A stretch of DNA of 20,954 bases, from positions 1-20,954 of IMG/VR virus record IMGVR_UViG_3300017738_000054. One strand, given 5' to 3'. Shown here piece after piece: positions 17,935-19,718 of the stretch. This DNA is from a virus. Both the position numbers and the translations under genes were made by a program. Numbering within the stretch: the first letter of the stretch is position 1; each line of letters opens with the position of its first letter. The notes beneath the pieces were generated by a model that worked only from the letters and a program-made list of their open reading frames with translations, had not been told where the DNA came from and did no database searches.

Positions 17935-18105
17935 TTATTCTAATACAATTAAATGTTTTTTAGCCCATTTTATATTTAAATTCATAGTGTTTACTATCTT
18001 GTCGTGTATTTCTACACCATTAATGGTTCTAACTACCTTGAGGTTACTACCTTTGTTACCTTTTTTTCTAGCTCTCCTAGAATAAAATTCATTTTTCTTA
18101 CTCAT
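17935..18105 (-). CDS. Small basic protein (56 aa)
   Basis: A 56-residue frame starts at ATG 18105-18103 and ends in TAA at 17937-17935. The start overlaps the preceding stop (ATGA) and is preceded by a full AAGGAGG site formed by the terminal arginine codons of the upstream gene. The N-terminus is very basic (KKNEFYSRRARKKGNKGSN) and is followed by a VRTINGVEIHDKIV strand-like segment. A small nucleic-acid-binding protein is plausible from charge alone. I recognise no family. It ends 11 bases before the hydrolase ATG. Confidence 0.75.
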   Translation of the reverse strand: MSKKNEFYSRRARKKGNKGSNLKVVRTINGVEIHDKIVNTMNLNIKWAKKHLIVLE

Positions 18106-18380
18106 CTTCTCCTCCTTTTCATTGGTTTAAAGTTACCCTCTTGCCAATCCTTTCTCATACTCTGCCATTTCTCATCAGTCCAATGAGGTAACAGATTAAA
18201 ATTGGCAACAGACATTTTGTGTATGTCTTTGTATACATTACCTGCTTCACGTATCCAAACCCATTTACGTTTGGTTAGTACCCAAGTCTTTCTGTATCCA
18301 CTGCGTGGCAGTTTGCCTTGCCAATACACTTCGTATAGTTCAGCATCTTGCCATCGCTTTGCTTTAGGTTTAGTCCACAT
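18102..18380 (-). CDS. Tryptophan-rich basic protein (92 aa)
   Basis: This is a 92-residue basic protein with eight or more tryptophans (KRWQDAELYEVYWQG, KTWVLTKRKWVWIREAG, PHWTDEKWQSMRKDW) and an Arg-rich end (KPMKRRRR). It looks like a compact domain that could bind nucleic acid, but I recognise no family. The ATG at 18380 lies 18 bases after the CCA end of the tRNA, with TAGGAG in between, so translation follows or accompanies tRNA processing. Its last codons double as the ribosome-binding site of the next gene, which overlaps by 4 bases. Confidence 0.8.
   Translation of the reverse strand: MWTKPKAKRWQDAELYEVYWQGKLPRSGYRKTWVLTKRKWVWIREAGNVYKDIHKMSVANFNLLPHWTDEKWQSMRKDWQEGNFKPMKRRRR
18106..18117 (-). 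promoter_or_regulatory. Ribosome-binding site inside the arginine tail of the 92-aa gene
   Basis: The final Lys-Arg-Arg-Arg-Arg codons (AAA AGG AGG AGA AGA) give a perfect AAGGAGG with good spacing to the ATG at 18105. The same bases thus encode a basic tail and start the next gene. Confidence 0.6.
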
Positions 18381-18398
18381 TAGTATCTCCTATAAAGT

Positions 18399-18472
18399 TG
18401 GAGAGGGTAGAAGGAATCAAACCTTCATAAATAGATTTGCAATCCATCGCATAATCACTCTGCCATACCCTC
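18399..18472 (-). tRNA. tRNA-Cys (anticodon GCA)
   Basis: The 74 bases fold as a complete cloverleaf. The acceptor GAGGGTA pairs perfectly with TACCCTC over 7 bp. The D-arm GCA/TGC has a G13-A22 mismatch, like the A13-A22 of E. coli tRNA-Cys. The anticodon stem ATGGA/TCTAT has one G-U, the loop is TTGCAAA, and the T-stem GAAGG/CCTTC pairs fully. The discriminator is U73, as required by cysteinyl-tRNA synthetase, and CCA is encoded. The T-loop is TTTGATT (U56 for C56) and the D-loop has A19 for G19, a matched change. The D-arm is very like alphaproteobacterial tRNA-Cys. It lies 4 bases after the methyltransferase stop and 18 bases before the next ATG, so it must be cut from a shared transcript unless it has its own promoter. 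Confidence 0.93.
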
Positions 18473-18476
18473 ATTA

Positions 18477-19718
18477 TTATTTTAATCCTTGCATTATATG
18501 TGCAATCACATCAACTGTCCAACCATTGCCTAACATCTTATATCGTTGGCTATTGGACACGTGATTTGTGTAGTTGTCAGGTACAGTTTGCAATCGCTCA
18601 CACTCTATTGGTGTTAGCTTTCTCCATTGCATACCCTCTACTACTACATTGTCTTTGCTTACAGTTGTAAGACAGTTTGACTTATCGCTATCACTTATCT
18701 CTAACTGTTTGGATAGAGGTAGCTCAAGTTGGTTGTCTTTACGGACACCATCCTCATCTAGCCTACGATTAACAATCCTACCTATAGATTTAAGTGCTAA
18801 TGTTTTCTTCTTAACACTACGTAAATATTCAGAGCTACTACCACCTCTGCCTATAGCTTCTGTAAGACAGTTAGCTTTGTCCGTTGTAACATTCATCTTC
18901 TGTATCTTAGCTTCTTGATTAGGATTAAATGTTACAATATCTGTAGCTACCTTCGGTTCTCTATGTCCACCTTGCATAGTCGTAAGTGTGGGAGCTTTCC
19001 CATTGGGTGAGTAGATACGTTTGATACTATCAAAGCCTTTGATGTTATCAGCTTCGCCCACTTGTACCATAGTACGTTGCTTACGTTGGATACTGTTCCA
19101 CCATACTGCTCCATTATATCGTGCAGTAATGCAATGTGACTTGCTATCCTTGTTAGTCATAGCATCATTAGCTATGCCATCTTCTAGGATATCCTGCAAC
19201 ACTATACCTTTGTCCTCTGTTGGTATATCAAAGGGTATGTTAGTCCAATATAATCTCTTTCTATTCTGTGCTGAGAATAAACTACTGTTTATAGTCACAG
19301 GTTGTACACCAAGATACTTGGATATAATATCCTGACACTCTTGCTTCATAGGTACATTCTCCATAAGAAAGTACTTAGGTTTTAACTCATCTTTTAACCT
19401 AACAAACTCAAAGAATAGTTTACTACGTGGGTCATCAAAGTCTAGCTGTTTACCTGCCACACTAAACCCCTGACAAGGTGAGCCACCCATCAGTAGGTCA
19501 ACCTTTAGATATGTGAGAGGAAATGCCTTTCTACTTAAATTATTAAACTGTATTTCAGATACATCTCCTAGCTGTGTTGTCTGTGGGTAGTTTGCTTGTG
19601 TTACTTTCATAGCATACTTATCTATTTCAGATGCAAAGTAATAATCATACTTCACACCTGCTCTGTTAAGTGCTATCTGTCCACAAGACATACCATCAAA
19701 TAAACTTAATACATTCAT
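18477..19718 (-). CDS. dcm: DNA (cytosine-5-)-methyltransferase
   Basis: This is a 413-residue C5-cytosine methyltransferase, which transfers a methyl group from S-adenosylmethionine to cytosine C5 in DNA. Motifs in order are I, LFDGMSCGQIAL (6-17); IV, GGSPCQGFS with catalytic C82; VI, MENV (E120); VIII, QNRKRLYW (151-158); IX, RKLTPIECERLQ (366-377); and X, RYKMLGNGW (392-400). The target-recognition region (about 180-360) contains four related blocks of the K-x-x-C/T-(L/I)-T type (KSHCIT, KAPTLT, KANCLT, KSNCLT). No restriction enzyme is adjacent, so protection of phage DNA against host restriction is more likely than a complete R-M system. The start overlaps the upstream stop by 4 bases. 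The target sequence is unknown. Confidence 0.95.
   Translation of the reverse strand: MNVLSLFDGMSCGQIALNRAGVKYDYYFASEIDKYAMKVTQANYPQTTQLGDVSEIQFNNLSRKAFPLTYLKVDLLMGGSPCQGFSVAGKQLDFDDPRSKLFFEFVRLKDELKPKYFLMENVPMKQECQDIISKYLGVQPVTINSSLFSAQNRKRLYWTNIPFDIPTEDKGIVLQDILEDGIANDAMTNKDSKSHCITARYNGAVWWNSIQRKQRTMVQVGEADNIKGFDSIKRIYSPNGKAPTLTTMQGGHREPKVATDIVTFNPNQEAKIQKMNVTTDKANCLTEAIGRGGSSSEYLRSVKKKTLALKSIGRIVNRRLDEDGVRKDNQLELPLSKQLEISDSDKSNCLTTVSKDNVVVEGMQWRKLTPIECERLQTVPDNYTNHVSNSQRYKMLGNGWTVDVIAHIMQGLK

Follow-up and report, generated by a model that had tools for sequence, protein, structure and literature searches.

The window, i.e., the whole stretch of 20,954 bases analysed here, is a metagenomic virus record of IMG/VR and carries a tRNA-Cys(GCA) gene with an A-U pair at the elbow. 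Positions 19 and 56 of tRNA form a pair, and G19-C56 is among the most constant tRNA features, on a surface contacted by many proteins as well as by RNase P and the ribosome. We consider it likely that the gene encodes a working phage tRNA-Cys in which two compensatory mutations under AT pressure replaced a G19-C56 elbow by A19-U56.

A single tRNA was found by ARAGORN in the window (Table 1). It matches Rfam RF00005 at 18402-18472 of the minus strand, scoring 58.3 bits where the gathering threshold is 29. An earlier note, made from the letters alone, had reported A19 and U56 in this tRNA, and the Rfam alignment and the sequence place both bases exactly where it had put them. In the standard frame of RF00005 the two bases face each other, and U73, the GCA anticodon and the encoded CCA, described earlier as intact, are all present. 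In the covariance alignment G stands at positions 18 and 57, U at 54 and 55, and A at 58. Instead of the canonical G19-C56 the tRNA has A19 and U56, between which a Watson-Crick pair is still possible.

Table 1. Features of the tRNA-Cys gene and its neighbours in the window
Feature	Position	Strand	Basis or remark
tRNA-Cys(GCA) gene, 74 bases including encoded CCA	18399..18472	-	ARAGORN; Rfam RF00005
A19, D-loop (canonical G19); G18 is 18456	18455	-	Rfam alignment and sequence
U56, third T-loop base (canonical C56)	18419	-	Rfam alignment and sequence
Anticodon GCA, 7-base loop	18438..18440	-	ARAGORN, which puts it at position 33
Discriminator U73 (18402) and encoded CCA (18401-18399)	18399..18402	-	Sequence
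C-5 cytosine DNA methylase, 413 aa, upstream of tRNA-Cys	18477..19718	-	Pfam PF00145, E 6.1e-49
Gene of a 92-aa protein, downstream of tRNA-Cys	18102..18380	-	Conserved in relatives without tRNA here

The earlier note proposed checking positions 19 and 56 for covariation in relatives. On this check the pair is kept while the stems change in a compensated manner; in particular, all four of the relatives L002, L017, L102 and L001 keep A19-U56 despite altered stems. The column pair 19-56 in 46 distinct tRNA-Cys is GC in 30, AU in 15 and other in one; these 46 are our own choice from 74 distinct tRNA-Cys, and the GC/AU ratio is therefore not a rate. Over the whole structure 98.6% of the 966 cells of this alignment are paired, and the observed covariation was reached by no shuffle. 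Since A19-U56 is kept in the four stem-changed relatives, and given the 19-56 counts over the 46 tRNA-Cys, the pair is more than chance.

The same coupling is seen in pattern scans of 2.9 million IMG/VR contigs, with spacers of 12-20 and 8-11 (the window's own spacing is 11). A fixed tRNA-Cys motif with A19 and any base at 56 gave 10 and 9 stretches, i.e., 19 contigs, all with U56. The motif with U56 and any base at 19 gave the identical 19 contigs, all with A19, and the G19 form gave at least 120 stretches. We do not take the A19 scans as proof that intermediates are absent, because the motif misses two tRNAs with A19·C56 (those of the phages Arash and Y1-MI, see below).

A survey of phage and virus loci provided 412 distinct tRNAs from 168 loci, including the tRNA-Cys of L335 and L340 added by a relaxed ARAGORN run. 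The tRNA-Cys comprise 65 with G19-C56, 16 with A19-U56, two with A19·C56, none with G19·U56 and one with an odd D-loop; the other tRNAs comprise 316 with G19-C56, nine with A19-U56, none mixed and three with other letters. Thus the paired change claimed in the earlier note holds across distinct phage and virus tRNAs: A19 stands with U56 in 16 of 18 tRNA-Cys and in all nine of the others, and G19 never stands with U56 (0 of 65 tRNA-Cys and 0 of 318 other tRNAs having G19). A19-U56 occurs in seven tRNA identities, namely Cys, Ala, Arg, Asp, Gln, Gly and Trp, and we therefore rejected the idea of a phenomenon specific to Cys. An enrichment of A-U in Cys over the other identities cannot be claimed, because the Cys loci were picked by motif. 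An encoded-CCA T-arm pattern applied to the phage and virus loci gave 5 distinct non-Cys tRNAs with U56 against 104 with C56; the five are not independent, since several are on one shared contig.

Several individual loci from this material deserve separate mention. On one contig (L161:2209-3326) the tRNAs Asp, Ala and Arg have A19-U56, yet its tRNA-Cys has G19-C56. A 23-gene tRNA array includes a tRNA-like gene (L096:5330-5404) that combines G19 with A56; its T-loop reads TTAGATT and its anticodon loop is short. Pseudoalteromonas phage J2-1 has an unannotated tRNA-Cys (L228:2999-3073) with the T-loop CGCGATT and the D-loop GAGTTAGTAA; its C56 could pair with G at 19, and the 18-55 and 54-58 partners look changed. 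Three cultured Pseudomonas phages, M5.1, UNO-G1W1 and phiPsa374, have a tRNA-Ala(tgc) with A19-U56 (L334:1036-1110, L335:1014-1088 and L343:1011-1084).

The swap from one pair to the other is recurrent. A tRNA-Cys tree built without columns 19 and 56 needs 12 state changes, at least three of them forced by well-supported branches, in a tree whose support is generally weak (about 73 columns, with 27 of 43 inner branches open). In this tree L174, which has G19-C56, sits within the supported clade of the window tRNA.

Among cultured Pseudomonas phages, an orthologous tRNA-Cys is found in all three states of the pair. Boevelstad, M5.1 and UNO-G1W1 have A-U, Y1-MI has A·C, and G-C is present in Kremar, VCM, UAVern, ventosus, phiPsa374, PPSC2 and 37F. 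This set consists of 11 records chosen by us, several of them Otagovirus, and at least nine are among the 110 records matching the Boevelstad tRNA. The earlier note had treated relatives with only one of the two changes as evidence against its reading. Such tRNA-Cys do exist: two are known, in Salmonella phage Arash and Pseudomonas phage vB_PF_Y1-MI. Both are A19·C56 and one belongs to the orthologous set that holds both end states, so they read as intermediates. Three states occur and G·U is never among them, which points to position 19 as the first to change; this suggestion rests on the two A·C tRNAs.

Base composition was compared among the loci. The loci with an A-U tRNA-Cys have 33-47% G+C and the median of the G-C loci is 55%, a comparison confounded by the many G19 loci that are prophage ends in G+C-rich hosts. 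The lower G+C at the A-U loci fits mutation pressure plus compensation. Of the non-Cys tRNAs in the A19-scan loci (112 distinct ones), only 3 are A-U, and most of the others keep G-C. As most tRNAs in the same genomes keep G-C, AT pressure does not by itself explain why a particular tRNA switches.

The switch may be pictured as follows. The first change would most likely have been at G19 and would have left an A·C mismatch that was tolerated; a change at C56 would then have restored a Watson-Crick elbow. Unpaired states would be short-lived because folding depends on the elbow, as do the contacts made with RNase P and the ribosome. The repeated switching in phage tRNAs is probably due to their being accessory copies, often in AT-rich genomes, able to pass through the mismatched state. 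Both the order of mutation and the role of AT pressure as driver are our inference. The earlier note argued for selection on function; the part of this that stands is selection to keep a pair, and selection for the A-U pair itself does not follow.

Stacked on the core, the elbow pair presents an exposed recognition surface to the ribosome, to RNase P and to other partners (PMC4810234). With A-U in place of G-C, the elbow face should be nearly unchanged. The minimum T-arm for TruB is given as 53-GUUYRANYC-61 (PMC7912444), and the window tRNA-Cys, which reads GUUUGAUUC, agrees with it. In a review table, a G19A/C56U pre-tRNA-Gly is cleaved by a protein-only RNase P about as well as the unmutated one, with k of 1.78 against 1.67 and, in the next column, 7.7 against 4.8 (PMC5039416). 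Given the fit to the TruB minimum and the near-normal cleavage of this engineered pre-tRNA, the window tRNA-Cys is expected to be functional and charged. It would be expressed, charged by the host cysteinyl-tRNA synthetase and used in translation.

The carrier, a marine phage, is of the HMO-2011 type. Over its whole length, PolA shares 63.7% identity with that of Roseobacter phage CRP-345 and 62.5% with that of HMO-2011, and the gene order of the window, compared by eye, resembles that of CRP-345. The tRNA is found in the same place in L002. L004 encodes a 92-aa protein with 99% identity to that of the window, and here the methylase gene and the 92-aa gene abut with no tRNA between them; comparison with the window (18381-18476) thus reveals a tRNA cassette present or absent between two conserved phage genes. 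The 92-aa protein has no match in Pfam or PHROG. ARAGORN found no tRNA in L005, L007 or L008. Since the tRNA is absent from these three loci and from its place in L004, its gene is an optional passenger. Cysteine accounts for 1.1% of 6,787 codons in 26 frames of the window (TGT 59, TGC 18), a share that gives no sign of special demand for tRNA-Cys.

A19-U56 is rare in the sampled cell genomes. The A19 motif was found in two stretches among the 84,980 species genomes of genome_contigs. One of them, L107 from a Burkholderiales MAG, has A19 with C56 and was not counted because it has no tRNA call and, by eye, no matching 5' half. The other is from a Moraxellaceae MAG (1.6 Mb, 22 tRNA matches), in which the A19-U56 tRNA-Cys is the sole tRNA-Cys found. 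This gene (L106:2058-2132) lies between surA and tRNA-Leu, apparently in the chromosome; a D12-type DNA methylase follows it and may mark an island. The G19 form of a slightly wider motif was found in 116 of 398 genomes of the phylum of this MAG, and, in the class to which G344 belongs, the A19 motif was in none of 240 genomes. The C56 T-arm pattern for all isotypes with encoded CCA gave 347 matches in 11 genomes (summed from a table). The U56 pattern gave 42 matches in 200 genomes of one phylum, against about 25 in the backward control (sums). The 42 loci contain one tRNA, the Moraxellaceae tRNA-Cys that anchors the sample, and no other.

Such rarity bears on two other explanations. The tRNA could have come from a host lineage that itself has an A19-U56 tRNA-Cys, and the Moraxellaceae MAG is one cell genome with such a tRNA. 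We regard this origin as improbable: the two stretches among the species genomes, one without a tRNA call, and the empty class of G344 weigh against it (with the reservation that the motif misses divergent tRNAs), and the nearest relatives of the window tRNA in the tree are viral. Somewhat more credible, while still unlikely, is that the A-U elbow is adaptive, differing at a surface recognised by RNAs and proteins of the host (RNase P, T-box leaders, modification enzymes or a defence nuclease), and that the phage tRNA thereby escapes or is favoured in infection. A19-U56 would then be an alternative elbow class carried by phages and treated differently by host factors, one that spares the phage tRNA from a host activity reading the elbow or shifts the tRNA preference of the host ribosome and RNase P in infection, an idea we hold to be equally doubtful. 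Its occurrence in seven tRNA identities and several phages agrees with adaptation, as do its rarity in sampled cells, the exposed recognition surface formed by the G19-C56 face (PMC4810234) and the anticodon-loop mutations of phage tRNAs for which escape from host tRNA nucleases has been proposed (PMC10264068). However, most tRNAs of the same phages keep G19-C56, no host factor that distinguishes A-U from G-C at the elbow was found in the literature searched, and the Moraxellaceae MAG has the A-U form beside surA on what seems to be the chromosome.

It is very improbable that the gene is a pseudogene in decay that acquired its two changes by chance. Single-change tRNAs do exist and relatives have G-C where the window carries the G29·U41 wobble, but the helices form, compensation of stem changes is seen across relatives (98.6% of cells paired, as above) and four relatives with different stems keep the pair. 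A sequencing or assembly error might be suspected in a metagenomic contig; this has a negligible chance of being correct, as the identical bases occur in independent contigs and in cultured phages, whose genomes refute it. The compensatory switch in a working phage tRNA is thus the reading that we prefer.

A-U should pair as well as G-C at the elbow, yet it almost never occurs. Cultured phages offer one tRNA in natural versions with A-U, A·C and G-C, which makes the reason for this directly testable. There is also a warning for annotators: public records leave one A-U tRNA-Cys unannotated (Boevelstad, L258:1994-2069) and mark another as a pseudogene (UNO-G1W1, L335:1471-1547); the latter is also missed by ARAGORN at the default setting.

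Pairing between 19 and 56 is of a known kind, and the natural A-U variant in a phage is new; no report of A19-U56 in phage or bacterial tRNAs was found in the open-access literature searched. The window tRNA resembles bacterial tRNA-Cys(GCA) in its cloverleaf, GCA anticodon, U73, encoded CCA, G18, U54, U55 and A58, and differs in having A-U where the bacterial tRNA has the canonical G19-C56. It shares its double change with the lab-made G19A/C56U pre-tRNA-Gly, which is an engineered form of another tRNA and was compared, in the review table, through cleavage by protein-only RNase P (PMC5039416). Eukaryotic tRNA-Ala likewise shows, within a single tRNA identity, naturally altered tertiary pairs that are otherwise conserved, whereas the pairs described there are 15-48 and 54-58, not 19-56, and the tRNA is cellular, not phage (PMC7566577). 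Phage tRNAs with changed anticodon loops, described as evading host tRNA nucleases, also deviate where host factors read; their changes are in the anticodon loop (PMC10264068), while that of the window tRNA is in the elbow and implicates no nuclease. Finally, tRNA-Pyl and many mitochondrial tRNAs have neither G19 nor C56 and are described as losing or remodelling the elbow (PMC7609411), whereas the window tRNA keeps a Watson-Crick pair there.
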